This document shows, piece after piece, positions 286 to 39,483 of a DNA stretch of 64,000 bases. The position numbers were made by a program, and so were the translations under genes. The notes under the pieces were generated by a model, which made no database searches, was not told the DNA's origin, and was given only the letters and a program-made list of their open reading frames with translations. This stretch comes from Aotearoamyces nothofagi. Its lineage: Eukaryota; Ascomycota; Leotiomycetes; Leotiales; Tympanidaceae. Every line of letters starts with the position of its first letter. Position 1 is the first letter of the stretch. The stretch spans positions 1,178,001 through 1,242,000 of the forward strand of contig JADDTR010000004.1 of the NCBI GenBank assembly GCA_015345905.1, given 5' to 3'.

Positions 286-1994
286 TCATCCAATAAATAC
301 CGGCATTCTACTGCCCTTGAGATCTGATGGTATTATGTTGACATCCGCTTTGTCAAAATCATGCAGTAACGACCAACATATCATTCTAAAAATCAACGTA
401 ATCCAGATTGCAGAACGTCCTGCCCTTGCCTCGTCGTTCAAGCCCAAACCTTCGGCGTCTCTGACTTCAGGAAGTATGCTATCGAAGTAGTATCGAATGA
501 CATTGAATGTAGGGTTGGCACCAATAACAGTTATAGAAGTCTCAAGTTCGTGCGATGCGTTTAATACGCTACCAAGGTGGCTTGCCATGACACTCTCGAT
601 ATGTTTCTTCTTGACATTGGCGGATAAATAGTCCCGTGAGATATCTAGGCCGTCATGTATGACTTCACGCATTTGAATGCTTATTGTGTCGAGTTTGGCA
701 TCAACCTTCCAGACACTCTGCATGTTTTCCCACTGATCTAGTATTGCCACTAGGAGCGGATGAGGTCCAACTGGCGTGGCTCGGGAAGGTTCAACAATGT
801 CTTTCAACCGATCTTGGAATTCTGCCATTGCGGCGACCCAAGAAATTTTCGTAACATCCCCTAGCCAGACATCTGCAGTTGGGTTTGGTAGCATCCTAAA
901 CATGCTACCCCGGATTCTAAATGGCTGCGCAAGCATAGCTATCATTTCAAAGGTAACTAACATATATTTTAGATTTAAGCTTGCAAACATCTACTGCAAT
1001 ACGTACCCGAGAACATGTAAATACGGCTTCTCTTCGATTCGTATTTTTCAATAGTCGCAGGATCACAGCTCAATGTCGCCAAGGTACGCTTAACACGACC
1101 AATGCTGCCAACTTCTAGATCTCGGCCGAGGATACTTGGCACATAGCCAAAGACAAGGTCTTTGATCTCGTGGCATGGTATTACTCTATTTGCTTCGAAT
1201 TTTGATGGGCCAGTTACAGTGAAGATGGTCATCAACTCTAGTCCACTTCATGCATATCAGTTCCGTATCACAGGAGGGTTGATGGAGACATACCGGACAA
1301 GGGTAGAGGAGAATCTATATCCATTGCCTTCACTCGAGACATCCCCCCGCTGTACGTCGAATATCTTCCAGTACATCCCCAGTAACCCGACCATCTCGAC
1401 AAGGTGACATAGCGTCGTTGTAGCATAAGGTTTGGTTATACCTGCAGGCATAAAGTCCCATGACCTTTTCTTCTTCTGTATCGAATGGGAGATTGTATAT
1501 GATGGTGTTACTAGGGAACTGCCTTTCGGGGGACCGCGTGCAGCTGCCTCCCATTTCCGAGACTCGTTCTCTTCCAACTGGAGAGCTGTGAGCAATGTAA
1601 CCCACGAGGCTCGCTCGTCATCCGCAGTATGGATAGCCTTCAGAGTGTGTTGAGGGTGTTCCTGTGTTTGTGTTTTCTTGTATGACTCCGGGGACCCATC
1701 AACGAGGTAAATATCTGCATCTTGAATTGGACCTTTCGTATTTTCGGGTGGTGCTAGGAATATGACTGGAGTTTCAAAGACAACCTCGAATCGCAATTCG
1801 GTCACTCGAAACTTTCGGTGTGTGCTCTCAGCCCACCGACCCATTGTAGAACTTGTACATCTTCGATAGCCATCTGCTGCACTCGCTAGGTATTGTTGGA
1901 GGACTTGCAGGATTGTCGTCACCAAGGCAGTTACTGACACAACGAGTGCTGTGATGGCGAGGATGTTGGAACTCCTATCATTGTTATCCGACAT
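286..1994 (-). CDS. modin-like fungal membrane protein
   Basis: Model: complement(join(286..956,1007..1245,1294..1994)), 536 aa. I recognise the pattern annotated as modin in filamentous fungi: an N-terminal hydrophobic stretch at about residues 12-34, then the GYRRC block, a middle GMYWK motif, an EGNGY motif and the late RGSMFRMLPNP block. No biochemical role is established for the family that I know of. The ATG at 1994 follows an in-frame GTG and is the first Met. Intron 1294-1246 begins GTATGT and must end at an AAG acceptor to keep frame; a TAG acceptor 8 nt further on would break it. Intron 1006-957 begins GTACGT and ends TTAG. Both joins restore the family sequence. It shares a 1.06-kb divergent upstream region with the HglS-like gene. 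Family assignment is from memory, structure from splice signals. Confidence 0.8.
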
Positions 1995-3056
1995 GGCTAG
2001 CACGGGTCAATGTCGGATAAGGACGTCCGAAGGGCGGCTTCGCTATAACAGAGAGCATCTACAGATGAAGAGAGAAAGCAATTGAAGGAAATCAATTGAT
2101 GTTGCCAACGAGGCTGTGATCAGACTCCGCCACGCTAATGTCTCGATCCTTGCTTGTGCATCAGTATCATCAGCATCAGCCTCGCCAGCGCCAGCGCCAA
2201 ATCGTGCGTGCGCGCGCGAGATTAATCAGTGCATATAAGCCAGCTCAAGCAGGTATACCGAAGCAGCAGCATAATTTAGACTGGGCGGCGGTACAATTAT
2301 AATCAATTAATTAATTGCGCTTTGAAGGGCACGCTTTATATCATTTATAGAAGTAGCAGGACATAGTATAAAAAGACGTTTGCTGATAACGATACTATTG
2401 ATAGGATAGACCTCTCATGAATCAACAGTTACAATTCGGTTGCGTATCCCCCGCAAAGCCGGCCCCTATTACCCGAATTCAACATGCACGTGCCATGTAA
2501 AGATCAACACTTAGACACTCTTACAGATGCATCCTCAACTTCGGCGGCTAGCAGTGACGGAGTTGCTCTAGAATCAATATGCGTAGTTAAACAAGCAGAG
2601 GGCTAATACCGTTTTCTCGTCTTGCCTTAAGTAACTATTGCGAATGCCCTCAGGTTAGCTCACAGATCCAACTATTGTCCCTGGCGAAGTAGCATTTCTG
2701 CCCTCATTGGATGGTTCTATTTACTAGGTCATTTGGGTGCTTGAATTCTTCCAATATCCATTCCGCGGGAGCCATCCAGACCACCGCCACAACCGACAAT
2801 AACCGGTCGAAGACTTGCCAGATAACTTAAGACGTGCCCTCCCAACCCAGCATTTCGTCAGGTGATCATGGTTATCACATCACATCGCATCGCATCGCAT
2901 CGCATCAATGTGATGTTTTTATTATTATATCAGAGCCCTCAGTGTGGCTAACTGCAAATACCTTACTTTCCCAGTTGCAGCCCTTTCGTTGCTGGAATAC
3001 TGTGCCGTTGTAGCACGCATCACAACAGTGCCACACTGATACTATGATCTGTAATC
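1995..3056. promoter_or_regulatory. divergent intergenic region, modin / HglS-like
   Basis: A 1.06-kb stretch between two genes that start away from each other, so both promoters should lie here. No supported ORF. It carries an alternating purine/pyrimidine GC run near 2205-2217 and a CATCG pentanucleotide repeat (about five units) at 2883-2906, roughly 150 bp before the HglS-like start codon. No specific factor site is claimed. Confidence 0.5.
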
Positions 3057-4496
3057 ATGGCAGCTGTGGCCCCCCAATGTCAACGTGCTCTACGACCACA
3101 GGAACCCTACTGCAACCAAGATGAACTCCGAAATAGCTTCGCGATGGCCTTATCGACTATGTACAAATCCGAGGTTCCGCTTTACGATGATCTAGTCTCA
3201 ATTGTGAAGGAAGTCAATTCCAAGGTCCTATCTGCAGCAGGTCAAACTCCCCCAGACAGGCTCGATCTCGAGAGGCACGGTGCCATCAGACTCGGTACAC
3301 CCCATGAACTACGCACTGTACGACGCATTTTCGCCCTCATTGGGCTATTTCCTGTTGGATATTACGACCTTTCTATCGCCGGCTTGCCGATGCATGCCAC
3401 GGCCTTCCGCCCTATAACCGAGACCGCCCTCAAAAGGAACCCTTTCCGGGTCTTCACTACGTTGCTCAGACCCGAATTACTAACTTCTAGCTCACGAGAC
3501 TTGGCCTTGTCACTATTGCTAAAACGCAACATATTCAGCGACGATCTCACACGACTGATTGGGGTCGGTGAGGAACAGGGGGGACTGACCCCACAACAAT
3601 GCCACAGGTTCATCGTCGAGTCAATGAATACTTTCCGCTGGCAGCCAATAGCAGCGACTACCTTTGAGAAATACAAGCAACTGATGGCTGAGCATCCTGT
3701 CCTTGCCGATATCTCCTGCTTCAATAGTGCCCATATTAACCATCTCACCCCGCGAACACTGGATATCACAGCTTCACAGGCGATGATGAAGTGCAAGGGA
3801 CTTGCAGTGAAGTCTAGGATCGAAGGCCCACCACCCCGTCGCCATCCCATCCTTTTACGACAGACAAGCTTTCTAGCACTTGAAGAAGCAGTAAAGTTTC
3901 CTCTAAAGGACCCGAATAGTATAGAAATCGAGCTTATCAATGGGCACCACAAAGCACGTTTCGGCGAGATTGAACAGCGTGGTGCAGCGGTTACGCTGAA
4001 AGGAAGAAAATTATACGACGACATCTTGATTAAGGCAATGCAGGAGGCACAAGTCCTGCAAGCGGACTCAGCGACCACTGATCGCATTTTGGCAAAGGCG
4101 TTTGAGAGATACCCAGACAAGTGGGAGGATCTTATCGAACAAGGCTTAATTTTCTGCACATTTCGCTGCACCGATCAGGCTCGAAGCTGGAAACCGGTCT
4201 CTGCAACTGAAAAGCTGACGAGTCTTCTTAGTAGTGGGTTGATAGTGGCGTCCCCTATCACGTATGAAGACTTTCTGCCATTTTCTGCAGCTGGCATTTT
4301 CCAGTCAAATTTACAAACAATACCCAAACCAGAATCCGACACTAAGCCGCAGATGGAACCATGTGAAGATGTTACTGGTTTCGAGCATGCTCTAGGTTGT
4401 AAGGTGTGGAACTTAAATGAACTATATACTAAAGCACAAAGCCAAAGTTTGAAAGCTTGTGCTATCGAACTAAGTCTTGAAGAGATTATTTGCTAG
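3057..4496 (+). CDS. 2-oxoadipate dioxygenase/decarboxylase family protein (DUF1338, HglS/YdcJ-like)
   Basis: Intronless, 479 aa. The bacterial family member HglS uses Fe(II) to turn 2-oxoadipate into D-2-hydroxyglutarate with loss of CO2, a step of D-lysine catabolism. Family landmarks are in order: HGAIRLGT (residues 74-81), GYYDL (101-105), HATAFRP, FRVFTTLLRPELL, FRWQP, then HINHLTPR (226-233) and FGEIEQRG (302-309). His74, His226 and Glu304 or Glu306 sit where the metal ligands of the bacterial enzyme lie, and Arg78 matches the substrate-binding Arg after the first His. Length is close to the bacterial enzymes. The ATG at 3057 is the first in frame. The substrate in this fungus is inferred. 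An antisense ORF of 269 codons across this gene is a shadow. Confidence 0.88.
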   Translation: MAAVAPQCQRALRPQEPYCNQDELRNSFAMALSTMYKSEVPLYDDLVSIVKEVNSKVLSAAGQTPPDRLDLERHGAIRLGTPHELRTVRRIFALIGLFPVGYYDLSIAGLPMHATAFRPITETALKRNPFRVFTTLLRPELLTSSSRDLALSLLLKRNIFSDDLTRLIGVGEEQGGLTPQQCHRFIVESMNTFRWQPIAATTFEKYKQLMAEHPVLADISCFNSAHINHLTPRTLDITASQAMMKCKGLAVKSRIEGPPPRRHPILLRQTSFLALEEAVKFPLKDPNSIEIELINGHHKARFGEIEQRGAAVTLKGRKLYDDILIKAMQEAQVLQADSATTDRILAKAFERYPDKWEDLIEQGLIFCTFRCTDQARSWKPVSATEKLTSLLSSGLIVASPITYEDFLPFSAAGIFQSNLQTIPKPESDTKPQMEPCEDVTGFEHALGCKVWNLNELYTKAQSQSLKACAIELSLEEIIC

Positions 4497-5000
4497 ATTT
4501 GTTGAATTCTGAGGGCCAGTACTGGTCAGTAAAGCAATGCCTTAAGCAGCAACAGTAGCATAAGTGGAATTTCCGCCAACATATAACTTAAACTTTTAAG
4601 CAATAAGTGAAGCATCAAGCAATACAAAGCACCGCAGCCTCCAATTTTGTGCCAAATTGCCACAAGATTTATAAATATTAATATAAAACGACAATATTTG
4701 AGTGATGGTCAGATGGAGCAATTGTATCTACGGCAGAATATAGTCAGAGTATATAAACTGCTTCTAAACCTATATTCGCAGTTTGAGGTAGAATGTTGAG
4801 CGATGGTAACAGGATGAGGGAGCAGGTGTGTAAGTCAGCTACGGCAGGTGCTGCAGTCACGTGCAAGATTGCACACATTGTGCTCCTACCCAAGTCTACT
4901 AGCCCCAGGGACGGAGAAAGCTTACTGAAGTATAATCTATCACGCGCTAATTCAATACCCTCCGTCTTCATCTCCATAATTCCTATGCCGTGAATTGAAT
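4497..5000. other. intergenic, HglS-like to NMNAT-like gene
   Basis: 504 bp, AT-rich in its first half. It holds only short ORFs with no family resemblance. It probably contains the 3' end of the upstream gene and the promoter of the downstream one; no clear TATA element or terminator stands out. Confidence 0.5.
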
Positions 5001-6054
5001 ATGTCGCGAAACTCTCGTAACCTCGCGAGCTATATTAGTGCAATCTATTATAAAGACAGTGTCGAGAGATTTCATAATATTATTTTTGATTATGGCATCT
5101 CCCACCGTTCACCGATGCTCGTGCCTGGTCGTAGCAACTACATCCTAGTATATCCTGGCTCTTTCAACCCACCCCATCTGGGACATAGGGCATTACTCAG
5201 CCATGGATTTGGGAGAAGTGGTAGCGACATGAACATGGTCGCAGCCATCGTCCTACCGCTAGATGATTCACACCTTGAACGGAAGTTTAGGGGTATGAAG
5301 GATGTACAACTATTCAAAAAGGACCAGAGAGTCAGGCTCTGGAAGGACACCGTACCTAGCGATTGGTACTGGGTGTATGATCGTAGCATTGAGGAATGGG
5401 TTGTATTCGTGAATCGTCTGACCAAAGCCATTCTTCAAGACGGATTCGATATCAAGTTCGTTTACTTATCCGGGCCGGACTATATTAAGGTGAATAAAAT
5501 TCCTCCACCTGATGTGTGGGAGGGCTGCAAGGACATTATCGTCAGTGATATTGGAAGGAGTGCGGATTTCTTTAACGGTGATATTAATTATTTGACGACG
5601 TTGAAAGATTGCGAGCCATGGGAGGAGATCTTTTCGAACTACGAGAACCTGAAGAAGGAGGCTATGGAAGATGCAAATTGGGCATGGTCAGGCATTTTCA
5701 TGATCAATCCGGGATATGGCAAGAGAAGGTTAGATGAAGGTGAGCGCTGTATTTCTACTTCTGGCAAACTTAAATAACTGATTACATCGAGATCCCGGAC
5801 GTGTAGATCGCGATGCCGAAGAGTTTTTGAATATCGCTCTTGAGAAGGACAGAGCTGTTCGGACTTGTCGCCGTCGAGATGATCCGGAGTCGACGATACG
5901 GTTTATACAAGCATGCCCACAGATGACCAATATTAGCTCTACTATTGTAAGGGATGTATTGGAAATACACTCGGGCGACGAACTTCGCCGGAGGCTAGAG
6001 TCACTTGTTCAGAATCCAGGTATTTTGATGGATTATTTATCCAAAAGTAGATAA
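5001..6054 (+). CDS. nicotinamide/nicotinate-nucleotide adenylyltransferase-like protein
   Basis: Model: join(5001..5739,5792..6054), 333 aa. The nucleotidyltransferase (cytidylyltransferase-like) fold is shown by YPGSFNPPHLGH at residues 51-62, the GxFxPxHxGH ATP-binding signature, and by ISSTIVRDV near the C-terminus, the SSTxIR phosphate-binding motif of NMN adenylyltransferases. Such enzymes join a nucleotide to ATP to make NAD or a related adduct. The N-terminal 45 residues before the fold and the insertions make it longer than housekeeping NMNAT, so the true substrate may differ. The intron (52 nt) starts GTGAGC, has AACTGAT as branch site and ends CGAG; joining restores GAT (Asp). The ATG at 5001 lies two codons inside a longer frame that opens with TTG. 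Confidence 0.78.
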
Positions 6055-6293
6055 TGAATACATAGTTAAATTACTAGTATTATTTTATACCCCCGATAAT
6101 GAACCGACGTGGACTGCTGGCTCTATTCTATTAACCCTCTATAGAATTTATAAGTAGCGATTATGTTCCCTAGATTAAGTTTCTATTAGTATACTTATAT
6201 AAGAGCGTTGTAGGTCACTTTAAAACAGTACCAATCTGTTATAGAGGATTCAAAAAGATCCACCTAGGTGATTGTAAGCGGGCGAAAGGAACG

Positions 6294-7769
6294 TCAGGTG
6301 GCACATATTTCTACCTCGTGCATTTTTAAATCTGCTAGAAACTCCACGGCCTCGGAACCAAGAATGGAAATTGCGAGACCCTTGGGGTTTCTGAATCGTT
6401 CTACTGCTGATTTCAGGTCAGTCGGGAGCAGAACACCTCTTGTATTTGCCGAAACTGGAATCTGAGCATTTGTCCTGACTCCCCATAGACCTGCACCGAC
6501 TATAGCAGCCAAGGCATGGTGAGGCACCAGGTCAGCTCCTGGAATCCTGATCTCGAAACGAGTACTCTTGGACGGGCAAGTTGGTGGTGCAATTATACGC
6601 GCAAGAGACATCCTGTTTTCTAAGCCCCAGCTCGCAGAAACAGGAGCCCACTTCATGTGTTTCAATCGTTTGTATGAGTTGACCTTATCAGTGTAGATTT
6701 AGTTCACGATCATCTCTCAGATACTTAGACTGACTCACATTCGGACACAGCAGGGGCATAAGATCGGGAATTGCTGTGAGAACGCCAGCAAGAAACCTCT
6801 GCCCCATGTCTGTGATGTTTGATAGCTCTTTGTAGACACAGTCTGCATTGATACCTTCTTGGTAGAAGGCATTCTTTCCAGTCTTCTTATCAACCAAGGA
6901 GACTAAAGCCTGTAAGCACAATGTTGAAAGATTTGTGTAAGGATTTGTTTACGGACGATGAATATGACCTGAGTTACCCCCTTCTTCTATGAATGGCTTT
7001 GCCATAAATGTTGGGCGGACTGGTACCGGTCTGACCAAACTGCCAACGACCTTTGCGACCAGGCGAAATAGTACAGCACGATCAGCCATCGCACAGCACT
7101 CAGCCACGGCCAAGGCTGCTTCCACCGCAGCACCACCAAGCTCCGTATGAAAAGACTCTACGGGACAGTTGAAGGATGCACATGACTTCAGAATCGCATT
7201 TGCGAAATCCTCATGGAGGCTCATTTCAAGTATTGAGTAGGAGATTGGCTCTTGCTTCAAGAGAAGATTGGTTCGGTGTGGAAATCTGTTCGCCGATGTA
7301 GAGGGTTCTTTGAGTAAGCAGAATTCAAATTCGATTCCTGACATCACTCGTAGACCCAGAGCCGTCTCTACATCTGTCACGACACGACGAAGCAGTGCAC
7401 GCGGACATGCCGGTGAAGCTTCTCCTGTTCCCGGGTCATGAAAGGTTCCCTGTACTGCAGTGAGTATACTAGAAAAAAAAGGATGAGGCTATTCACCAAT
7501 AGGAACAGGCGGTCATCTTTCCACGGCATCTTTCGAGCCGGCGAATCATCGATACGGAAAAGAAGATCGGGAAAGACAGATTCTTTGTTGGCCCTCTCGA
7601 GGAACCCGTCTCGAGAATCAGACACCAACGGACCAGAAGAGAAGCCAAGCCCAAAGTCTTTGCCAGAAACCAACTTTTCATGTGAGATGATCTTCCCCCT
7701 CAGGTTGCCATGAGGGTCAATGCTAGCGATCTCCGCCCACTGCGATGTTTCGTCTCTTGTCTCAGCCAT
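6294..7769 (-). CDS. glutamine synthetase-fold protein (GS/FluG C-terminal type)
   Basis: Model: complement(join(6294..6683,6739..6902,6957..7449,7497..7769)), 439 aa. GS catalytic landmarks in order: SGIEFEF (Glu131, Glu133, metal ligands), HTELGGAAVEAAL (equivalent of the ExxxGQxE block), GNSGHIHLSL (about 249-258), VNSYKRL, WGLENR and FEIRIPGAD. GS-fold enzymes ligate ammonia or an amine to a glutamate-type carboxylate using ATP. The metal-binding Glu and His are present, but the third block lacks the usual GQ, so the substrate is uncertain. The 7450-7496 intron must use TACAG rather than the CTGCAG 5 nt earlier. The 6903-6956 intron needs a weak GTCCGT donor, because the nearby GTAAAC breaks frame. 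The ATG at 7769 precedes MAETRDETS. It is divergent from the NLR gene and convergent with the NMNAT-like gene, 239 bp apart. Confidence 0.8.
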
Positions 7770-8580
7770 CGGGGGCGATTGAAAGTATTGGGCAAAAGCG
7801 CGTGATTGCAAGTCTATTCTAGATTTCAAGGGTTAGCAGGAAGTGCGGTGAACATTATGGGCATCCTGGACCTCTTGTATTGTGCTGTACTGTATGACAG
7901 AAGTTCTATAGGCCGCCCCAAGTCCAGCCTTGCGCTCCAACATCCCGCGTCAGCATTCTGCACCACCATTAGTGTACAGTTACTCCGCATTCTGTGAAAC
8001 TCGAAATATGAGCGTCAACGGGCTGAGCCCAGCCCAGCTCCCTCTGCTTGCCTTTGCAACCGGCACGACTCCCGACAGCGCCTTGCCGGCGATTTTAATT
8101 GTAGGCTCTGCCTTTGCAACGCCCGTGTATATAGGACCTAGTTAGTCTAGGTAAATGTTTCTGGACCAGTTTATCCAGTACATGGAGTAAGACTGAAGAT
8201 CACGCTGCCTACGCTACGGCAAGAAGATAGGGAACATCATCTCTACTCGAACTTTGTATGACTGGCTCGGGGGGTTTGAGCGGTGCGTGCCAGGACTGTT
8301 GCTCCCACCTTACAACCCTTGCCACTATGCGTCTTGCCGGGGATAGATGGTCTAGAGAGCTGAGGAGTCACGCACGGTGCTGTGCACATTAGTGCCTTTG
8401 CCTCTAGCTAGGCTTTCAAGCTGAGTCAAAGCTACCTAGCAATTTGGTGACGTGTTTAAAAGCAAGAGGGACAGATAAGAACATGAAGCCGTCGGCTGGA
8501 AATCGGCTACAAAGCCGTGTACCATTGCGCATACACCTTCTAGGACAATCTATCTCCCGCGGGAGCGTGCAGAGCCCATA
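7770..8580. promoter_or_regulatory. divergent intergenic region, GS-like / NLR
   Basis: 811 bp between the start codons of two genes transcribed outward. No credible ORF. It should contain both promoters; no known operator could be assigned by eye. Confidence 0.5.
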
Positions 8581-11500
8581 ATGTCATTCGGCTTCGGAGT
8601 AGGGGACATAATCCTCGTATCCCAGATTTCTTGGCGCATCTGGCAGGCATGTACCAGTGGTCGCAAGTCTGCGCCTGGAGAATTGAGGGAAGTCGAGTCC
8701 GACTTATGGGCCTTGTCGACCGGGCTGGAGAGACTCTCTGCTTCTCTCATCGCTTCGCAAGGCGGCAGCAGACAAGGAAAAGAAGACCTTAGCGATTTGA
8801 AGACTGCCGTGGAGTCATGCAAAGCGACCCTCTTGGAGTTCGATGTGTTGCTAGAAAAATACCGGCCTGCCTTCACCAAAACCTCGGACTTAGAGACCAG
8901 CCTTAGCAAGAAATGGACGAGCCGCGCTCGAAAGGTTTGGAGTCAGACCTTGTGGACGAACGAGAAAGATGCAATTAATAAAATTCGAACACGGCTCAGT
9001 CTGCACCTTCAAGTTTTAGACACCTTTACTCAATATGCTATTGTGTATGTATTGAATAGTATCGGGGGACGTTCTTCCTACAGGACAAGAAACTGTAGCT
9101 GACATGAGCAAAGAAATATCAATACAGAAGTAGTTCAGAAGTTGGATTCTATCCAAACCACTGTTGGTGAGTTATTATATTAGCTGACTCCGAGAAAACC
9201 CAATCTTTGTTAACTGGACTCCTGCTCTAGGACAAATCTCAAAGCTTCAAATTGAGACTAAGCCAGACTTACACGACAACCCATTATCAACCCACACAAG
9301 CTCGTATGATACATGGCTACAGTTAGATGGGGTTGCTTCAAACCTCTTCTTACAGTCTGCAGCCACACAATGGCTGAAATCGTTTTCTAACTTTACGAGT
9401 AAAACGCATCGGACACTTACTGAGCTGAGGAAGCTCGAGGATGACCTCAAGCTGTCAAGGTCTCTACTTTTCAATCACATCGATGCTGACAAATCTCTCC
9501 GCCTACATAGCGGCCACCCATTGAATGAATCCTTGGCCGAAATTTCTCAGAGACTGACTCCCGGATGGCTCGCAGATGTGTCCGCGAACGGAAGCGCCAA
9601 TAGCTCAGACGCCACAGATACTCAACCAAGTCTTGTCCAGGCTAGTTTTCTGTCGGTAGTCCTGAATACGGCATTGAAAACACTACGTCAGGTATTTTAT
9701 TAACTACTAATATATTACTAATATTTACTAACACATATAAATAGGAGGCAATGCCTTCGAAATATTTGAGCACCATTTCTAAACAGACTGAGACTATAAA
9801 CGTTGCACTTCAAATTCACGATGGTGATATAGGGCCCTATGAGGGTATAAAACAGGCTCCTTGCTCTTTGCTTTATATATCGTTGATTTCAGAGGTTGTT
9901 TTCTGCGTGTCTTCCATTATTGAATACACTATCAAAGTCGAGAAATGTGAGTCCCCCTAGCACCACTTCACTATGAGCTCATCACTTATAACAAGATACT
10001 AGCGATCTATCCTCAAAGTGTCCTATCTACCATGACTTACAACTTGCCGAATACCATGCTCCTTCATCAGACCGCATCGGCATACGAGGCTGCAAGAAGA
10101 TCAGAGAAGTTAATACCCGCTGTCCTTATGGCAGAAGAACGGGAAATTTTCAATGAACTACCGAAAATGGCACTTGAATCGCTGAATGAAGAGGTTCAAC
10201 GAAAAAGATGTAATCAAACCGCGAGCCTGCTGTTATGAACGATTAGCTGACCCTACATAAAGCGCCAAAGCTTCAAACAGAAACACAAGCCGTGCGATCT
10301 TGGCTCAGTCCTCCTGATGACGTTGAGGAAGATAGAGCTTTGCAGATATCTAGACGGTGGCCGAATACATGCAACTGGATATTCAAGAAGGAATCATACA
10401 GCACATGGTTTCAAACACCGGGATCGTCAATTCTATGGATTCACGCTCGGCCGGGTGCTGGGAAATCCGTTTTAGCTACCTATATTGCTCAATCCTTTGA
10501 AGAAGCTGGTGAAAGCACTGCGTATTTTTGCTTCAGATATAACAACGAAAATCTGCGAAAGCCTACTAGTTTACTTCGCTCGATTGCTTGGCAGACCTGC
10601 CTAGGGAATAAGGAAGCACTCGGTGTGCTAGTTAGAGTCCAAAATGATTATACTATTTCAAGTGGCGCCCGGGCAGGATTACTATGGAATAGGCTATACA
10701 CAGATGCGCTCTTTCTCATTGAGTCAGAAAAGCCTGTCTATTGGATCATCGACGCACTCGATGAGTGTGAACCATCGGAAAGAACCTCCCTTTTAGAGCT
10801 TCTTGCGGGAGTATCGAGATCCCAGATGCCAGTGAAGATAATTTTTCTCAGTCGACATATGAGAGACATTGCGAACAAATTTCGCCAATTTCCAGTTCCA
10901 GTCGAGGAGATCAAACCAGAGGACAACATTGGTGACATTAAGATCTTCGTCAATGAACGCTTGACTCGCTGGGGAGCCGAAGAGTCGTTGAGAAAAGAAG
11001 TTTCGGATGAGCTCATTCACAAAGCTAAAGGAACTTTCCTATGGGTGGCCAAAACATTAGATGAACTTGAGCTCAGAGATTTTGATGAGGACGTTGTAGA
11101 AGCATTGAGTGAGCTACCTTATGACCTCGAACAACTCTATGCGAGGATATTACAAGAGATGGCACATATGTCCCCGTCGCAAAAGCGACTCACAACTACA
11201 ATACTAAAATGGGTACTTTGTGCCGCTCAGCCTTTAACAGTTCAAGAGATGGTAGAAATACTTTGTCAGTCATGTGGCCGTATTTCGAATGGCGAAGCCA
11301 CAATCCGAAATTTGTGTGGCCAACTTATAAGCATTGATAGATCAAGGGTTCAGGCCAATCATATGACGATTCAAGAGTATCTACGCAGAGACGATATAAA
11401 ATCAGAATTTCGGGTGGACTTGCTGAAAACACACCATGAAGCTGTCGAGCATTGCCTTTCTTACTTTGATCTTTGCGCTCTAGACCAGAACCAATTTCCA

Positions 11501-12907
11501 GACATCTTCGAGACTTACCCATTTCTTCCATACGCGGCCCAATTCTGGAGTTTTCACTTAGGGGAATCCCCTTTCTCTACCGCTCTTTGCCATAAACTTC
11601 GGGCATTCTTAGACTCTTATAGCTTTGGTGGATGGCTACAGAGTCTTGCTATGCTCTCAGGACTCAAATATGCGATGACTGCAACGGAAATTATTAAAAG
11701 GTGGGTTCACTCACGGGAGGATACCGTGGTAGAGGATCGGTTGTCTCGTCTGGAGAAATTGCTGTCATTGTTTGGCCATGATGGCTATGAGTATAGTGGG
11801 GCAATGCTCAATGGAAGCCGTCACGGTTTTGGAGTCTGCCATTACCCAAACGGAGATAGATATGAAGGATCATGGGAGGACGACATGCGCCATGGCTTTG
11901 GCGAGTGTTGGTATCGAGATGGTCGCCATTATTCTGGGCGATGGTCGAGAGACGAATTCGATGGACAAGGAACTCTCAATATGCTAGATGGAAGTCGGTA
12001 TGTGGGAGAATGGTCTGCGGGTAAGAAAAGCGGCTATGGTGCCATGGAGTGGTCAACTATGGAGCGCTTCAGCTATCGTGGCCAATGGAGAGAAGACAGG
12101 CCCCACGGGGAGGGCAAAATGATATTTTGTTTCGGAACTTATTACGAAGGCCAGTGGGATCAGGGTCGAGAGCATGGCATCGGTACGACTATTTACTGGA
12201 ACGGCAACCATTTTACGGGCCTCTTTGAAGACGGTGATGAGACGGGCGAGATACAAATTGTGAAGCCCAGCATAGAGGAAGTTATACGACAAGAGCCTGG
12301 AAATCCTGTAGAAGCTAAGTTGAAATACGCCTCTGGCGCGAAGTTTGAAGGGCAGATAAATTCTGAGGGCTTGCCCGAAGGGAAAGGTACGATGTACGCT
12401 ACAACCGGCGTAACATGGAAAGGCGAATTCCTCAATGGGAAATTTCATGGGCCTGGGGTTTCAACCCGACCAGATGGTGGTGTCATACGAGGCGATTGGA
12501 CGCATCAGGCTGCGACAGGCTATTTTGAAGAGATCAGTGGGGATGGGAAGACGTGGTATAAGGGTGACTTCAAGGATACTACTAGAGATGGCCATGGGAT
12601 TTGGCGGACAACCTTAGGGTTTACAGATGAGGGCAGCTTCTTCCGCAACGAGATCCACGGCCAAGGTGTGCGCACATTTGACAATGGAGACGTCTATGAA
12701 GGACAGTTTACTAATGGCTCGATACATGGCCAAGGCGGTTTGAAGTATGCATCTGGAGAAAGATACGAGGGCCAATGGCGCAACGATAAAAGAGATGGAG
12801 AGGGAAAGCTTTGGTTACTGAACGGCCTTGTATTCCAAGGCGAGTGGAGAAGTAATATAGCCGTCAAAGGGAAGTTGAGTCATACAAAATTCTCCTGCAA
12901 ACTTTGA
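8581..12907 (+). CDS. NLR (STAND) protein: HeLo-like N-domain, NACHT, MORN repeats
   Basis: Best model: join(8581..9058,9128..9166,9231..9691,9745..9946,10003..10209,10263..12907), 1343 aa. Residues 1-160 match the N-terminal domain of fungal STAND proteins (start MSFGFGVGDII, HeLo-like family). The NACHT ATPase has a P-loop PGAGKS at 526-531, Walker B WIIDALDE at 623-630 and a following IIFLSRH sensor-like strand, then a winged-helix region. From about residue 970 to the C-terminus run about 14 MORN repeats of ~23 aa (YEGxW...GxG pattern). Fungal NLRs usually end in WD40, TPR or ankyrin repeats. By family role it would be a self/non-self recognition switch acting in the cytoplasm or at membranes; MORN arrays often bind phospholipid or act as scaffolds. 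The first intron (9059-9127) is the least sure; 9043-9108 also keeps frame. The gene lies tail-to-tail with the AONS-like gene, 84 bp apart. Confidence 0.85.
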
Positions 12908-12991: not shown

Positions 12992-14343
12992 TTAAATCAC
13001 TGCCTGGTTCTGGATCTCCTCCATATACTGCACCAGCCTGTGAACATGGCTCATCGTATTGTTAGCATGGATGCAGATACGTAACCTATTAGTGTCTTTA
13101 GGCACCACCGGAAAGGTTACAGGTGTCAGCACAAACCCTCGTTTCTCCAACTCTTTTGCCACCACTCGTGGCTTAGGAATCAGTACACCGATGATGTATG
13201 TAGGCTCTTTGTTGGTGAGACAATAGCCTCTTGCCTTGAGCAGGTGATAAAGTGCATGTGCCATTTCAAAAACCTTCTGTGAACGCTCGATGGATAGGCC
13301 ACTTTCGAAAAAATCATACACGGTCGAAATAGCCAGGAGATTTATAACAGGCTGGGCAGTCGAGTAGCGGAAGGATTTTGCGTAGTTCACAAGGTAGGTT
13401 CTGACTAGTGCTGGGCAGAGAACGGCGGCTGGAAGATTTGTTAGACCAAGCATTGCACTATATCGTTGAGAGATACTTCAAGAGAGCCTTACCTCCACAA
13501 GTACCGGGGCCTTTGCTAAAGGCATGCATTTGAACGAAGCAAGATGACTCAAGCCCAAGCTTATTTGCAAGCCCCTGGCCTTTTTTTCCGTACATGCCAG
13601 TGGTATGGGCCTGGGATATTGCTTATAAGTCCAAGAACAGAGGTACAACGGATAACCTCCGGTTATTAACCTACCTCATCAGTGATAAGATATCCGTTTC
13701 CCTTTGGAAAGCTTTTCTTCAGTAAAGAAACAAGTTCTTTCAGAGGCGCCACATCGCCATCCATGCTATACATAGTCTCAACAGAGACAAAGACGTTGGC
13801 ACTGCCATCCGCGACAGCCGGAATCTGGCCTAGAAGATTGAAAACTCTGGAAGCATCGTTAATGTCGTTGTGCGCAAATGCCAGCTTCTGGGCCGCCCTG
13901 CTGACCCGAATCCCTTCTCGGATACTGACATGCACCAGAGAGTCGAAGATAATGATATCGTCGGGTCTAGGAAGACTGGAAAACAATCCGTAGTTGGCGT
14001 CAAAACCAGAGTTGAACAGCAATGCAGTTTCGGCACCATGGAACTTGGCAATTCGTCGTTCAAGAATATTGTGAAATACGGTGTTGCCGCTGGTAGTCCG
14101 TGGGCCGCTGGCGCCTAGAAAGGGGACATCGAGCTCTTCCAGGGCAGCAATATATTGATCTTGAAGCTCTTGGTCGGTCGTCAGGCTTAGGTAGTCATTT
14201 GAGTAGAAGTCGACGAAATCTCCTAAGCTGGTGCGGCTTGATGGCCCTGTCAGCCCGTCGGAGAATTCGAACTCGTTAATCCTACGGAGAAGGCCTTGTG
14301 CTTCTTGGGCTTCCAGCAGCTTTTGGATCTGTTCGAGGATCAT
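12992..14343 (-). CDS. 8-amino-7-oxononanoate synthase-like alpha-oxoamine synthase
   Basis: Model: complement(join(12992..13428,13493..13610,13675..14343)), 407 aa, the usual length. A PLP-dependent enzyme of the class-II aminotransferase fold that condenses an amino acid with an acyl thioester; BioF uses L-alanine and pimeloyl-CoA/ACP in biotin synthesis. Seen: FYSNDYLSL near the start, GASGPRTTSGN, HxxLE region, TDEAH (Asp222, His225) and FSKGPGTCGG, with Lys256 as the Schiff-base lysine. Both introns are 64 nt with clean GT-AG ends; the second has a CTAAC branch. The ATG at 14343 is the first in frame; an open frame continues about 100 codons upstream without ATG, so an additional upstream exon is possible. 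The P450 follows on the same strand, so a role in secondary metabolism is as likely as biotin synthesis. Confidence 0.85.
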
Positions 14344-14771
14344 AGTGTACTGTTTCGCTGGTATGATGGACGACGAAGACTTCTGGTGTCTGGACAGGGC
14401 TTTGCCAATGTGTATATGTGCCGGGGGTTTGTGTTGAGCAGTCGCATAGCTCCTTGGCTGGCTCAATATGCATCCAATGTTCAACGTCGTAACGCCGTAC
14501 TCTGGAACCCCGTAACCCCGCTTTCTGGATATAAAGAGGGCATACACGTAGTGTATAGACAAGGGATCCGATGTTGCATCTGCAGCCTCAAGCGGCACAC
14601 AAAGCCAAGGCTGCACTTCGAGCGGGGAATGAACGCGGCTCACGTAGAACAAGTGCTTACGCGATGCATATTGTCATGTGGTTTATTGATTTTTGATATC
14701 ATTTCCTCAACCTACGTGTGAAAATGTGATTCGGCGATTATCAGCTGCATGCAGTTTGCAGCCTCACCAAC
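14344..14771. other. intergenic, AONS-like upstream / P450 downstream
   Basis: 428 bp between two genes on the minus strand. It likely carries the promoter of the AONS-like gene and the 3' end of the P450. The AONS-like reading frame stays open into it without an ATG, so part could be an unrecognised 5' exon. Confidence 0.4.
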
Positions 14772-16546
14772 TTACAATGCCTGTGCCTTTCGAGCTCTCA
14801 CCCACATGTCTCTTTGGAAAACCACGCCATAATTCTGCTCAAACCACGGCGCATCGGCGTTAGTGAAGCTGAGATCGAACTTGTCGACGATCTATACGTA
14901 ACTCTTGAGTCTTTGCCCTTTAACGTGAACAAGGCTGAGCTGTGGCTTACCTGAACGACGGTTTTTTGCAGTTCTATCAAGGCCAGGTGCTTACCAGCGC
15001 ATTCTCTAGACCCCATCCCAAAGCTGAAATCGCTTTTCCTCATCAAATCTATTTTCTCCGATCCTTCGAGCCATCTCTCAGGCCGGAAACTCGTAGCGTC
15101 TGCTCCGAACACCTGTTCATTGCGATGTAACACCCAAGCATTGCATCCGATATTCGTCTGAGCTGGGAGAAAATGACCTCCGATAGTAGCTCCACCAGGC
15201 GGAACGCATCGCATAAATTTCGCATTCGCTGCTGGGAAAAGTCGTCTGGACTCCTGTAGCACAGCAAGCAAAAATGGCATTTTGGCTGTTTCCGAGTAAC
15301 GAGGCGGTTTTGATAGTTTCCCGACAGCCCGAAAGGTGAGAATCTCTTCCCTCAAGCGTTCTAATGTCGATGGATGTAGTGTGATGCAGAAGATCGCTGC
15401 TCTTATAGAGGCGGCGATTGTGTCTGCGCCGGCAAAACTGGTACAACTTTAGACAACGGTGCTAGAATAATTATTATAGGTCTCAAATGAACTTACAATA
15501 TCAACTCAGTTTCTACAAAGCTGTCATTCTTGCTCATCCCTGCCGCATGGACAAAGTGGTCTAGCATATCTCGTGCTTCTCCTGGTTTGATTGCAGCCTT
15601 GTGCCTATCCTCGATCATCTCGCGAACGCACTGCGAAAACTATTAGAGGCTTTTTGTAGCAGTTAAATATGTCTCCTAGATAACTTACAACATCAAGCTT
15701 TCTGATCCCTGTGGGCGAGCCAAATATTGAACGAGCTAGGTATGATCTAACAGCCTTCACGAGCCAAGAAACATGGCTGAATGCAATCAAAAGGGGAGTA
15801 GTAATTTGGACAGCACGTATGATACCGTCAACATCCTCTCCAGTCTCAAGAAAACAGAACGATCTACTAAAGCCAACGACTCCTAAAACATCAAAAGTAT
15901 AGAAGCTAACCCAGAGGGCAAGATCAAACTCGGCATCCGAGTCCACGAAAGCTTGTAGTCGCTCAGTAAGAAGAATGAGCTTTTCATCAATCTTCTGCTC
16001 CAAGGCCAACATCGTTGCGCTCGAATACTGTTTCTGTTAAGTGTCCATAGAATAAATTAATGACGATAACTTACAGCGCTAGAAGCTTTCCTTCTCATCT
16101 TCGAGTGTAATTGCGAGTCTCGTACACTGAAAAGGTTTGGTACCCCCGGCAAGAGGTCAAAGGCTTCGTATTCACTTGCTTTAGGAAATTTTGTTCCCGG
16201 TGCAAACACCTTTCGGAAATCATCGTAATCCGCGATCAGGACGGTAATGGGGCCAATTCTGATCACTGGGCCTACCCGTTCGTATTAGCTTTTAGCCCCC
16301 TTGGATATCACAAAAGTAACACTTCAGCTGGATAGATTTTATAATGATATTACCGTGCTCCTTGTGCAATCTTGCCCATACATGATGCTGGCTCCCATCC
16401 AACGTCTGTTTCACCATCCAAAAGTTGCTAAATCTAGCCCTTAGGGGCCCGGGAATACCACGTAGAGGTCCGAAGAACAGAATCCTGACCAACGAGAGGG
16501 CACCGACGAGGAAAGATAGAAATAGAGCAAGTGGAAGCAGAGTCAT
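14772..16546 (-). CDS. cytochrome P450 monooxygenase
   Basis: Model: complement(join(14772..14891,14951..15437,15497..15630,15689..16027,16075..16271,16354..16546)), 489 aa. A microsomal haem-thiolate oxygenase. Seen: N-terminal membrane anchor (residues 1-24) followed by the proline hinge GIPGP, the I-helix AGADTIA oxygen-activation motif, the K-helix ExxR within LQESRRLF, the PERW motif and the haem loop FGMGSRECAG with Cys434 as the iron ligand. All six exons join in frame. At the 47-nt intron 16028-16074 two tandem acceptors 6 nt apart both keep frame; the second gives the family-like SAYSS junction. Co-directional with the AONS-like gene, which makes a small biosynthetic partnership conceivable, though no polyketide synthase or transporter lies nearby. 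Substrate unknown. Confidence 0.92.
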
Positions 16547-18351: not shown

Positions 18352-21300
18352 TCAAAACAGCCGTACTCTCGCCGCCGCCGTCGCCGTCGAAGTCGCTGCC
18401 CCTGATACAGCACCAGTACCAGTAGCAACACTTCCATCCGTATCATTAATATCCTGCCCATATGGCTGGAAAAGGTTGTACGGAATCTTGGACGAAAAGT
18501 TAGGCAGGATAGTCGACGCCGCAAATATAGGGCCAATAAGCAAGGCTAAAAACACGACAAGGAGGGTGAAGTATAGGACTGCGTAGCGCACAACACGCCT
18601 CTTTCGCAGCTTGGACTGCTTGAGCGAGAAAATTGGTGGGCGGATTTGGCGACTGGGGATAGTTAGTTAAGGGTGAATCGCGGTAAGAGGAAAGGGCGTA
18701 CCTTGGGCGCAGCCAAAACAGCATTATAGAGTGGAGTTTATCCACCTTAGGAATGATAAGCACTGGCAGCATAGCGAAGAGGATAAAATGGCAAAGCACA
18801 AAATCGCCCGCGAACATCCCAAGCTCAGTGATTTTGCACAGAAACTCACGCCCTGGTTGCGACAAGGTATGCCAGCCCATCGAGTACCACTTCCCAGTCC
18901 AAAAAGCAATATTAGCATCTTCCGCTTTCATCTCACGTGTGAGAGCCAGGTTGATGATGAGTTTGTAAATGAAGCGCTGGATTGCAGCAGCAGCTATCAT
19001 ACCCGCGAGTGCCTTTGCAAAGACGAAGCCTTCGAGGAAGAACATAATCTCGAATGAAACAAAGAGCATGAATACCGCAATGCCGTGAGCAATAGCGGCG
19101 AGAACAGTGCCGAACTTCTTGCAGCACATGCTGAGAACGGGGCCCATACAGCATGCCATGCCGAACATTGCCGCGAGGACGGCGGTGTTGACGGCAATTG
19201 GCGCCACGGCCACGAGAGCTACCCGCAGCAAGGCAGCCGTAGCTGTAGCGGTCGAATCGTTAACAAGAACGCCGGTCTGGGCATTGATAAACAGGTACGG
19301 AATCACAGTAACGGCGACTACTATCAGAGGTCCTAGGATTTCGCTGAAGAAGATATTCGCGAATGCTGCACGCGCCATGTGAATATTTGAGGATGCAGAG
19401 GTAGGTTCGCCGAGGGAGGTGCGCTTATAGCCAGTGATCTTTGTCCGTGAGAGGCGACAGAAGGCAATCCACGAGCCCGAATGCGCGCGGGAGTTACCTC
19501 TTGATAGCCAGCGTATGAAGTCTCGATAATCGACGAAGAAATCGCCCCAGGAAAATTGATGCGGGTTGTACAAGAACGGCGAAGTGCATAGTGCAGTAAG
19601 AGATATCCAGAAATAGATCAAGCCAGCTTGCCAGGCTGTTAAGGTTGCAAATAGGAGCATCATAATGTTGCGGCCTCCTAGGTAGATGGACGGACCAGCA
19701 AAGCGAGAATACAATACACTGAATGGGATGCGTGAAGTGGCAAAGCCACGTCCGGTGCCAATGTACCGAGCACCCCCGAAAGATAAGTCTTGTTGCACTG
19801 AATTGGCGTATATTTGGCACACGAAAACCTCAAACACAGGTGATAGAGAGCCCACCTGTTTACCGAGCCGCATAAATGCACGTATAAATCCGCGCTCAGC
19901 CGCCTCTTGGATGACTAGAGGCACAAAAGCAATAGCGAGGACGACGATGATAGAAATAATACAACGATATACCCACTTCATAATAGGGTCGATATCGTTA
20001 CAGTAAGTTGGCACCAGCGGATCGGTGATAGGCACACCTGACTTAACAACGCAGGAGATGACTTGGTTCCGAAGTGCGCCCAAGTTGATCAAGCAGACCA
20101 TCAACATTTGTACAGACAAAATGATGAAGATATTATTCAGATGGAATCCTGCATGGGCGTAGTAAAAGGAGAGAAAGCGGTCTAGAGGTAACTGCGTCCC
20201 CAGGTAATAATACTCTCGAGAGAGCATTTGTTCGCCCATACCGGTCCCAATTTTGGTATAAAAGTTGAGGATTGATCCAAATCCAAGATCGCGACCTTTA
20301 CCACACTGATAATATTCACAGTGCTTAATCCGGCCGCCCCTGAGAATCGCTGTCATACCAGCATAGATATCTTCGTTGAGATGGAGCCCTTTCTGAGCCT
20401 TTGATACTCCTCCTCTAGTGGTCATAAAGATTCCATTCAAGAAGTCTGGGTGGCCGTAATGAAGTTTACCGCCGATCTGTGCAAGCGTGCGTGCAAATAG
20501 GGTGCCAAATGTCTGCTCCTTCCCTGCAGCACTATCGCCGAGGATACCAATATTCTCAGAAAAGATATATTCGCGTGCTCCGAGTATTGCAACCGGACTG
20601 ACGGTGTGTTTAGTGCCTGCAGTATAAGGTGCAGTTTCCATTTCCATCTCTTCAAACTCGGCCAGGACGCTTCTAATCTTGAGGCATTCCTCCAGATAAT
20701 TGTCTTGATTTGCATCAATGAGCTGGATATACTCACCGCGATAGAAGATCAAGGAGTGGTTCTGATTATCCGATTTTCCATCGCCCAGGATTGGGTTTCC
20801 CGATAGCTGGACTCGAAATTTTGGTCGTCGCATTCCGTTTTCCATGATTTCACAGTGGCCGTCGATCAATGCCGAGTACAGACGAGGTTCATCACCTTCA
20901 TTGGTGGGTGCTTCTTCGTCTAGGTAGGCAATCTGTAGTTCTGGAAATGCACGGAGTAGGAATTCTGTATTCTCCATCTCTCCTTCGTTGAACTTTGAAT
21001 ATCGCTGCATAGATACAATCATCTTGAACTTTCGGCGTGCCATTCGTTCTAGCTCTCGTTCAAGCTTGTCGCTTGAACCTCCAAACATGTGTACAACCTC
21101 GGGGTTTTCGACGCGATATAGTAACTTGATAGCACGACTATAGTTCATAAAACCAGAAACTGTACGATAGAGTGTCTGTGAGCGGAGTGATGCCCAGATT
21201 CTCGTCCGGAGTGTGTATTCTGGAGCTGCAGACTTGAAGCCAATGAAGTAGAATGACAGATCATCAATCTTTCGTCTAGCCTCCTCTGCTTCATCTAGTT

Positions 21301-24193
21301 CGTTCTTCGGTCCAGAAACCTCCTCTGCAAGGATTTTGGTATCTTTGACAAAGCAGTCCCACTCATGAGGGTGCAGCTGTTTCAGGTATTCTAAAAGTGT
21401 GAGCCGGGAGTATACGTCGTCTTCTCGTATAATTTCCCTGAGAGATAGAAGAATCTTCTCGCTGTAATGTGGGATCAATACTGTAAAGGTAGGCATATTA
21501 TCTACTGGAGAAGGTTGAGGAATAGGTGTTGACAACGATTGAGCAAAGAATGAAATTCGACGTTCTGCTTCGCTTTGTGATGGGAAGAACTCGGATTCAA
21601 AGGACTGATCGTCTTGCGATAGGAAAAATATTGGCGCCCGTAATGTCCTTTTCCCTTCTTGTTCAGAGGGTACTTGGTGGTATAACAGCATTTGAACATG
21701 GTCAACTGAAAGAAGGTGTTCACGATACATGGAGATTACTACGGCGTTCCAAATCTGGGAGACTAAGACTTTGGGCTTATATTTTACCTCCATGTCGTTT
21801 GTTGCAAGCACTTTAGAGTATATCCGTTTTGGCAATCTAGCAAATATATTTTTCCAAGGCGTCCAAATTGAGATTCCTAGAGCGAAGGATGTAATGACCG
21901 AAAATAGGGTGTTGACAATAACATACCACAAGAACGTATCCAAGAAGAAGAGTATGAGGTCGGTAAAGAACATTAGACCGAGCAGAATCTTAGGCTGTAG
22001 CTTGCAAAGGACGTCACCAAAGTATTGATCCCCAAGGCAGGTTCGAATCTTCGTCGTGGAGAGGATACGGATCGAGTCCTTGAATGACAATGTTAAAGCG
22101 ACCCATGATTCCCCTAGCTTGGCACCGAAGACGCACAACCAGAGTCCATATGACATGTAGACATTCCTGCCAGTAAGGGGTGTAACACTAGCAGTGAATG
22201 CCCGACTGGCGACATATTGTCTGGACTTCTTTGACCCGAGGTAACTTCCAAAAAGGCTTCCGATTGGCACGACGGCGAAATATAAAAATGAGGCCAAGTT
22301 GAGGAAGAATTGCACAATGCCTAGGGTCAGGGCGATCTTCGTAGCTTGTGTGTCCTTGATAACAAAGATATAAACAGAGGGTGCAACATTTATCGCCAGT
22401 ATACCGATGAGAAATAACAATCGTTTCGTAAGATGTTGAGCACCAGGCCATCTGCGAGGCACATATGACCACTCTGCAAGGGTTGCTATAATCATGATCA
22501 GGGTAGCTATTGCGCCACCAAGTGCAACTGCCGACCATTTGGCCGATCCGTGTGGTTTATTGTCCAGTTCTTGTTCATAGTCTTTTGTGTAGATGGTGTA
22601 TGCATTATAGGCAGTGTAGTACCAGTACATAGTTATATGTATGACCCAAATTCGATTGAAATTGAGCACGAGGTGGAACCAAGACCGCGTCTCCTTATAC
22701 GTCTTATAGAAGACCTTGTTCCAGACAACGTCCTTGAATTTCAAATATCGCTCTGCAGGGAGGAAATCGACAATCCGAGATTTGTCTTCAAAGACAATGC
22801 GCTCTAGGCCCTCTGGATACCAGAACAGCTGGTTACAATCGTCGTATCCTATAACCCTGTTGTGGTCTCGCTCCCGACGCATGTATTTACCCTCTATTAT
22901 CTCGTAGCCTTGGTCTCTGCAGAATATATACAGAGGGGTTATTACGTCATTGAGATATGTGAATTCTTCGACCGGTTCGACCAGGGCCTGACAGGCGGGG
23001 GAGTTGTAATAGTCGTCTGCGCATTTGAAGATAAAGCACAGGCATTCCGGCATGAAACGCACTTGATTTGCTTCACCCCAGCAAAGCAGGTACAGAGCAA
23101 TCTGACGTGTACGGTCGTGTTGTGACATTCGGTTCATACGCGTTTTCCACCTATACTCGGCAGCTTCCAAGCTGGCGTCACCCTCTAGCTCTTCAAGAGT
23201 CTGGGCGTCATCTAGAGGGCTAGTCTGGGCCTTGGCCTGTGCAGCCTTCCGAGCTTTGCGTGTCTTGCGTGTCTTGCGTATGGCAAATGCACCAGTCGCC
23301 TCTTCGACGTCCAGTTGAGCTGCAAAATACCACTTTTTGTAATTGGCGTTGTCCCCTCCGATATAGTCAGCATGAAGGGTGAGCAAAGCCTGGTCTGGCG
23401 TCATTCGAGAAGCTCGAGAATCGAGCAAAGTCATAAAGTGATCGTACATATTACGCATGCTATCACGTTGGAAACCTAATTTCGCAGTTAAGTCGAGGAA
23501 GATGCTCTCAATCTCCTCCTTCGATAACGGAATCTGAGCATCGGAATTCCAAGCTGGATAGGGCTCGCGGGAGCGTTGACCGGCTGGAAACGCATTGCTA
23601 TTGTATCCCATTCCATAGTTGGGCGTGGAAGCGCCGGATGATCGGTCTGCTCCGTAGGAAAATTGAGATGCAGGAAGTTTGTCATCACCGCCTATATAGC
23701 CTTCATTGTAGCTGTTGTATCGTTCATCTCCAAGGCCAGTAAAATCACTGAAGGATTCGGAGCCATCCTCGAAACCGCCACGACGTTTATCCTCTGAATA
23801 CTCGCCTTGACGGGGTTGGTGCCGCTGTCCCGCTGCAGCGCCTTGATTATAGTCGTAGTACTCGTCCTGGTACTGATCCCCGTAGTCTTGGCTTTCGTAG
23901 TAGTCACCGTCTTGTTGGTATAGATTGTTTGATTCGGGATTGTAATAGGCCCTGTAAGTTTTGTCAGTCATGCTCGAATTTCCAAGCAAGGAGTCTACTA
24001 ACGAATCATCATCATAGCCACCGGCCTCTTGTTGACGAGGGTCGTCATGGCCTTGCTGCTGGTCGTAATGCGCCGCATTGCTTTCGTAGTACCCTGGATT
24101 ATGATCGTCTGGGTACTGCAAATTGGTATTGCCATTCTGATGGTAGCCATCGCCATCATCATAATGGCCCTCTTGTTGAGGAGGTCCTGACAT
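18352..24193 (-). CDS. fks1: 1,3-beta-glucan synthase catalytic subunit (GT48)
   Basis: Model: complement(join(18352..18652,18702..24193)), 1930 aa, close to the usual ~1900. Plasma-membrane enzyme that polymerises UDP-glucose into cell-wall 1,3-beta-glucan, activated by Rho1. A hydrophilic, Gln/Asp/Tyr-rich N-terminus of ~220 aa is followed by the FKS1 domain, a first membrane cluster, the large cytosolic GT48 domain ([31 protein letters not shown]) and a second membrane cluster. One 49-nt intron near the 3' end (GTACGC...CCCAG) restores the conserved [20 protein letters not shown] tail and the last membrane helix. Without splicing the protein ends in unrelated sequence. Echinocandin hot spot 1 (residues 699-707, genomic 22073-22099) reads ALTLSFKDS, unlike the usual F-LTLS-...-DP. 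Frame is otherwise intact. Confidence 0.97.
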
Positions 24194-39091: not shown

Positions 39092-39483
39092 TTTGCAGAT
39101 TCTTGTAGTTGCGTTGGGGAAATAGTCAAAAAGTACCTTAAGCTGTTCAGGTAAATAAATGCGGCCGCAAGGAACTAGTATGTTTTGGGCGACTCGCGAC
39201 AAGTCAATACCACTATACCAGTTTGTTGCGTTAAATTGGTAAATTTGTATGGAGAATTTACGATAGAGATTTTCTTAAGTAAGAAATTTGACGTATACTG
39301 AGGCATTACGTATTCAGCATACTATGTTACAGTAATAATCAGAAATACAGCTTGCTTCAGCCTTCTGATATCCACTAATATTTTGCCTCAGGCATCACTA
39401 ATCAAGCTTAACTTTGAACTTATTGAAATTATCTCAAGGTCACATTGCGACCACATACAACTTGTAGTTATACATCCAACATT
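39092..39483. promoter_or_regulatory. 392-bp shared promoter, prp31 / clf1
   Basis: Two spliceosome genes start from opposite ends of this short AT-rich interval, so it must hold both promoters and may co-regulate them. The reading frame of clf1 stays open 13 codons upstream of its ATG. Confidence 0.7.

Follow-up and report, generated by a model that had tools for sequence, protein, structure and literature searches.

A NACHT-MORN open frame

We analysed a window of 64,000 nucleotides from the ascomycete Aotearoamyces nothofagi (positions 1,178,001-1,242,000 of contig C4, 1.41 Mb, GenBank JADDTR010000004.1), in which a predicted gene at 8581-12907 encodes a protein of the signal transduction ATPases with numerous domains (STAND) kind that ends in an array of MORN repeats; the genome-wide searches reported here cover 25.5 Mb in 55 contigs. 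The core of this gene is an 886-codon open frame on the plus strand (10247-12907), which holds an NPHP3_N domain, a winged helix and the MORN array together, so that the fusion of NACHT and MORN is independent of splicing. Chance or a frameshift artefact as the source of the fusion is ruled out by this single open frame. The same frame makes it very unlikely that NACHT and MORN are two separate genes, an outcome for which an initial annotation of this DNA had allowed in describing a NOD-like receptor (NLR) with MORN repeats at its sensor end. The presence of the three modules in one frame, their order and the intact ATP-binding motifs are read directly from the sequence, as is the position of the array in the slot that other repeats take in related proteins. 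All features of the gene described below lie on the plus strand.

The nucleotide-binding part is an NPHP3_N domain, the fungal-type NACHT, at 10364-10855 (frame residues 40-203; Pfam E 1e-42, over the cut-off). It contains an intact P-loop, GARPGAGKS (GAGKS at 10454-10468), and an intact Walker B motif, WIIDALDE (IIDALDE at 10745-10765), in agreement with the initial annotation on both motifs. A GPIID_WHD winged helix follows at 11177-11416 (frame residues 311-390; E 9.4e-16, also over the cut-off), with the motif HMTIQEYL at 11360-11383, and is succeeded by a helical region at 11417-11680 that includes AAQFWSFH at 11534-11557. The classical NACHT model PF05729 reaches 18.0 bits on the 886-residue frame (cut-off 26.7); of the five matches of this model in the whole genome, two are over the cut-off and none lies in the window. 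With an NPHP3_N domain that carries P-loop and Walker B and precedes a winged helix, the protein can be placed among the fungal NPHP3_N-type STAND/NACHT ATPases.

The MORN array extends over 11792-12904, with unit 1 starting at amino acid 973 of the predicted full-length protein. Read in register it comprises 15 units (some 14 had been counted previously), two or three of which appear degenerate by eye, and 21 extra residues follow unit 7. Its tandem 23-residue units have the form YxGxW...GxG that defines MORN proteins; the Pfam MORN model matches the 886-residue frame at E 6e-46, with 10 stretches matched singly at E up to 1, and none of ANK, WD40, TPR and HEAT is among the 11 Pfam families that match this frame at E up to 1. 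When the array was used for a sequence search of the PDB, the best four matches were MORN1 sequences, and chance can be excluded for the array because these matches reach E 2.2e-38 to 2.5e-31. A MORN profile search of the genome gave six matches, all inside frame 10247-12907, and a protein search of the genome with the array found no second copy. The array is net acidic (44 lysine and arginine vs 55 aspartate and glutamate residues; isoelectric point 5.73).

The units have diverged from one another. Identity between them averages 0.23 over 105 pairs, with a maximum of 0.48, and self-identity of the array at period 23 is 0.23, whereas the WD40 repeats of an NLR on contig C36 reach 0.51 at their period of 42. 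Highly alike, exchanging repeats have been reported in part of the fungal NLRs (PMC4986451, PMC9815663). The MORN array looks old and fixed, unlike such repeats. Because the units are diverged, the gain and loss of units that the initial annotation had proposed to look for between strains is unlikely, and fast repeat turnover was rejected on the mean internal identity.

Relatives in the same genome

Searches of the genome with the NPHP3_N model gave eight matches, seven of them over the cut-off (the window included), and with the NB-ARC model two, both over the cut-off. When frames at the other NLR loci are joined by adjacency, the frames adjoining NPHP3_N places carry ankyrin repeats at C16, C8:632k, C8:626k and C5, and WD40 repeats at C36, an assignment of repeat types that leaves out the seventh NPHP3_N place, C1:1549k, and two of the five classical NACHT matches, C3 and C22:98k. 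The NACHT and winged-helix part of the window protein is closest by BLAST to that of C36 (26%, E 1.6e-24), followed by C8:632k (6e-14), C16 (5e-12) and, more weakly, C5 (3e-5) and C8:626k (0.010); C1 gave no match. Comparing amino acids 701-1343 with the repeat-side frames of these loci, we find similarity to C36 over amino acids 705-935 (27%, E 1e-8), that is, across the winged helix and the helical region, together with matches to C8:626k (E 5e-4) and C16 (E 0.002); there is no match to the WD40 frame of C36. The similarity to C36 stops 38 residues ahead of MORN unit 1, and the MORN array therefore occupies the slot of the WD40 or ankyrin repeats in the relatives, which supports the NLR-type layout first described for this locus. 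The array accordingly supplies C-terminal, superstructure-forming repeats of the sort found in tripartite fungal NLRs, and its repeat type falls outside the canonical ANK, WD40, TPR and HEAT set, which comprises the main sensor repeats reported in fungal NLRs (PMC4986451, PMC12258605).

Two of the other loci deserve a description of their own. On C36:10500-20400 (local 4138-9168, minus strand), NACHT_N-NACHT frames precede one in which 13 WD40 stretches, highly alike and of a kind that could gain or lose units, are found. On C8:622000-631900 (local 1886-5815, minus strand), a PNP_UDP_1 phosphorylase, NPHP3_N, ankyrin repeats and a G-protein alpha stretch (E 4e-25) stand in a row, with one open frame common to the ankyrin repeats and the G-alpha stretch. 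If this row is one gene, it may encode a candidate NLR with an integrated G-alpha decoy; a single literature search gave no description of such a layout. Single stops in the frames of the other NLRs had suggested pseudogenes, an idea dropped on the grounds that introns would explain the stops equally well.

Gene model and N-terminal region

The first ATG of frame 10247-12907 lies at 10826 (residue 194), downstream of the P-loop (residue 70), and in the absence of an ATG ahead of the P-loop an upstream exon must be joined to the NACHT frame. A predicted chain of six exons at 8581-9044, 9114-9166, 9231-9691, 9745-9946, 10003-10209 and 10263-12907 provides such a start and gives a protein of 1343 amino acids, free of stops and in phase throughout, with five introns of 53-69 bases that all follow GT..AG. 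Two of the five introns have AAG acceptors, which are less usual. Exon 1 encodes a helical N-terminal domain, exon 2 the predicted end of the N-terminal region, and the predicted exons 3 to 5 a middle region, while exon 6 falls inside the 886-codon frame and encodes the NACHT, winged helix, helical region and MORN array.

Codon preference was scored with five frames of the window as training set and base composition as the sole background; the z values, in the order of exons 1 to 6, are 2.8, 1.2, 2.2, 0.4, 2.7 and 7.8. The chosen frame scores best in exons 2, 5 and 6 and is outscored in exons 1, 3 and 4, and these latter values count against the gene model: a minus-strand frame leads in exon 1 (0.038 vs 0.011 per codon), another forward frame, though with 12 stops, leads in exon 3 (0.076 vs -0.017), and two alternative frames lead in exon 4. 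The 1343-codon spliced frame of the initial annotation is thus reproduced in its coordinates, its length and its stop-free GT..AG chain, although codon support upstream of exon 6 is mixed. The middle region (amino acids 173-462) has neither a Pfam match nor a paralogue in the genome. No 19-residue stretch of the protein is more hydrophobic than amino acids 367-385 in exon 4 (mean hydropathy 2.03), and this segment between the N-terminal domain and the NACHT is a possible membrane-active helix.

The domain of exon 1 starts with MSFGFGVGDII and resembles PF17111, albeit below the cut-off of that model. PF17111 carries the name PigL_N in the current library; its former name described it as a HeLo-like domain at the N-terminus of fungal STAND proteins. 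On C33, a protein over the PF17111 cut-off (32.7 bits) resembles the window domain in both search directions (identity 28 and 30%, E-values 0.0026 and 0.0032), and phmmer scores the same pair at 20 bits. A third protein, on C22, has the same start, MSFGFGxGDII. A single-sequence model of exon 1 places helices at residues 7-25, 32-58, 64-97, 102-111, 114-121 and 128-154 with low confidence (predicted local distance difference test, pLDDT, 58). A profile search of the PDB with the two-row N-terminal domain returned seven matches, none of which we take as meaningful; the best (E 0.013) is a chimeric mimic of spike HR1, and the others are helical or coiled-coil by name. Taken together, it is plausible that the N-terminal domain is of the PF17111 kind. 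The C22 reading (C22:199000-208900, about 2050-4956) starts with MSFGFGLGDII and has a WW-like motif downstream by eye, so that the N-terminal domain of exon 1 may have counterparts outside NLRs.

Proposed function and alternative explanations

On balance, we lean towards regarding the protein as an intact, low-copy, NLR-like STAND switch in which the MORN array replaces ankyrin or WD40 repeats as C-terminal sensor and autoinhibitor. In the general NLR scheme, the repeats keep the switch inactive until ligand binding releases it; oligomerisation of the NACHT then brings the N-terminal domains into action (PMC12258605, PMC9815663). Transferred to the window protein, the C-terminal repeats would keep the switch off until a ligand frees the NACHT, most likely a protein bound by the MORN array or another array of its own kind bound tail to tail. 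Ligand binding would then lead to nucleotide exchange by the NACHT and to oligomerisation, which would gather the N-terminal helical domains; if HeLo-like, these would target membranes or trigger regulated cell death, HeLo-like domains being four-helix bundles in common with MLKL and linked to cell death (PMC9815663). We infer nucleotide switching, oligomerisation and cell death from what is described for the family, and are less sure of what type of ligand is bound and of how the N-terminal domain should be classed.

Several observations weigh against this reading. Some allorecognition NLRs have highly alike repeats, unlike the diverged MORN units here, so that the protein is not necessarily a fast-evolving receptor; moreover, a single-sequence structure model of the MORN part is unusable (pLDDT 30). 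The exon 1 domain scores 14.9 bits against PF17111 (E 0.017; cut-off 27.2), a longer piece of 578 residues is not reported by that model at E 0.1, and the genome search with PF17111 finds six places, four over the cut-off, with the window not among them. Nor does phmmer match the PF17111 domain of C16 to the window domain. In profile comparisons by hhalign with two PF17111 domains, the N-terminal domain reaches a probability of 0.6% with two rows and, with three rows, 30% at E 0.00054. The fungal STAND N-terminal domain named in the initial annotation accordingly stays plausible through its C33 relative, while direct recognition by the family model fails. On the repeat side, amino acids 701-1343 have no significant match at C8:632k (E 0.31) and none at C5. 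Finally, in a seven-sequence tree the window NACHT does not join C36 but pairs with the ankyrin-type C8:632k at a support of 0.86; the tree has long branches, and we draw nothing from it.

Other explanations differ in how they assign the array. A lipid or membrane reader, responding to membrane damage or staying membrane-bound until a lipid changes, was the function originally suggested. Support for it is provided by the presence of junctophilins and of a chain named phosphatidylinositol 4-phosphate 5-kinase among the solved relatives of the array, and by the interaction of Trypanosoma brucei MORN1 (TbMORN1) with single phospholipids, yet TbMORN1 is reported to show no membrane or vesicle binding in vivo or in vitro (PMC7725318). 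The acidity of the array also speaks weakly against such a function. Because of these two observations we tentatively prefer a protein ligand or self-association over lipid sensing, in line with the view that MORN repeats mediate protein-protein contacts and can dimerise and oligomerise (PMC7725318), and we consider the lipid reader improbable. The array may instead serve mainly for dimerisation or scaffolding, as a tail that sets the oligomeric state or the location of a housekeeping, non-immune STAND regulator. Three solved MORN1 proteins dimerise via their C-termini (PMC7725318), and the best solved matches of our array are MORN1 sequences; its units are diverged rather than homogenised, it belongs to the sole MORN carrier found in the genome, and seven of the ten neighbouring window frames scanned belong to ordinary metabolic or core families. 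Nevertheless, the array sits in the slot of the sensor repeats of NLRs from the same genome, and the N-terminal domain may be of NLR type, so we regard a scaffolding tail as rather unlikely.

The remaining explanation concerns the gene model, in which a small upstream gene and a separate NACHT-MORN gene might have been misread as one. The weak codon support of exons 2 and 4, the higher scores of other frames in exons 1, 3 and 4, and a middle region that lacks Pfam matches and genome paralogues all point in this direction. Against this stand the need of the NACHT frame for an upstream exon and five introns that are all in phase, and we judge two genes to be decidedly improbable.

Relation to described systems

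The window protein resembles NACHT-WD40 NLRs of the HET-E/NWD type, such as that of C36, in having NPHP3_N, winged helix and helical region in the same order ahead of C-terminal repeats. It differs from C36 in carrying diverged MORN units for highly alike WD40 units, in its N-terminal domain (NACHT_N in C36), and in the gap between helical region and repeats, which is 38 residues in the window protein and larger in C36. The module order also equals that of NACHT-ankyrin NLRs such as C16 (PF17111-NACHT-WHD-ANK, with WHD for the winged-helix domain), and the N-terminal domains are possibly related; the differences are MORN for ankyrin and, as noted above, an N-terminal domain short of the PF17111 cut-off that phmmer does not match to that of C16. 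With MORN1-type and other MORN proteins (TbMORN1, RSPH1, junctophilins, SET7/9) the protein shares an array of 23-residue units, whereas none of the 30 PDB matches of the array is named as a STAND ATPase. Proteins of Drechmeria coniospora with a neoverrucotoxin-like N-terminal part and C-terminal MORN are alike in placing fungal MORN repeats behind another domain, but they have two MORN domains, no NACHT is mentioned for them, and the species is reported there to be without NACHT-domain proteins (PMC4859500).

Scanning prokaryote contigs with the 886-residue protein (six peptide patterns, a design that detects close relatives only) gave 27 pattern matches, none of them a relative, and the same scan of viral contigs gave two, again without a relative. 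A prokaryote scan with two MORN blocks yielded 31 MORN loci from 72 pattern matches, and the P-loop pattern [GA]xxxxGK[ST] occurs in none of the 31 MORN frames, which were chosen by a simple motif count and two of which are open at the 3' end. Our search of the full-text literature, to which supplements and fungal proteomes did not belong and which covered the overlap of MORN with NLR terms in part, found no description of a NACHT-MORN layout, and the earlier statement that no fungal family with this layout is described holds as far as that search reached. Besides the Drechmeria article, it led to papers on salivary glands, mitochondria-associated membranes in ageing, secretomes of gall formers, polymorphic toxins and plant transcriptomes. 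In one survey, 52% of C-terminal regions have a Pfam annotation, and of these 42% are ankyrin, 29% WD40 and 25% TPR, with the rest lumped (PMC4986451). A 2025 survey of Sordariales lists 185 non-canonical domains in 378 NLRs, with zinc fingers, SPRY and kinases foremost, and its profile set includes an 'others' group; the word MORN is absent from the main text, the list of non-canonical domains being in a supplement (PMC12258605).

It is a tentative suggestion, and one that may well prove wrong, that the protein represents a further class of fungal NLR-like receptor with a MORN array as sensor. Fungal innate immunity might then have an unnamed branch that senses through MORN repeats and reads assemblies of proteins or of the cytoskeleton instead of short motifs that diversify. 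If so, counts that require a nucleotide-binding domain together with ankyrin, TPR, WD40 or HEAT repeats could miss such receptors or file them under 'other'; since surveys keep an 'other' class for repeats, a NACHT-MORN protein need not be missed. With MORN repeats in the sensor slot, fungal NLRs would have a wider range of sensors, here in a genome with few NLRs, and the protein offers a testable case of a switch taking up a new type of repeat.

Neighbouring genes

Other frames of the window include an aminotransferase class I/II frame, KAPA-synthase-like by reading, that adjoins a cytochrome P450 frame (13669-15448, minus strand), and a 1,3-beta-glucan synthase (FKS1) frame of 1918 codons (18500-24256, minus strand). 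Farther along the window, a Prp31-like frame (37140-38648, minus strand) is followed by a frame resembling a HAT-repeat splicing factor (39427-41601, plus strand).

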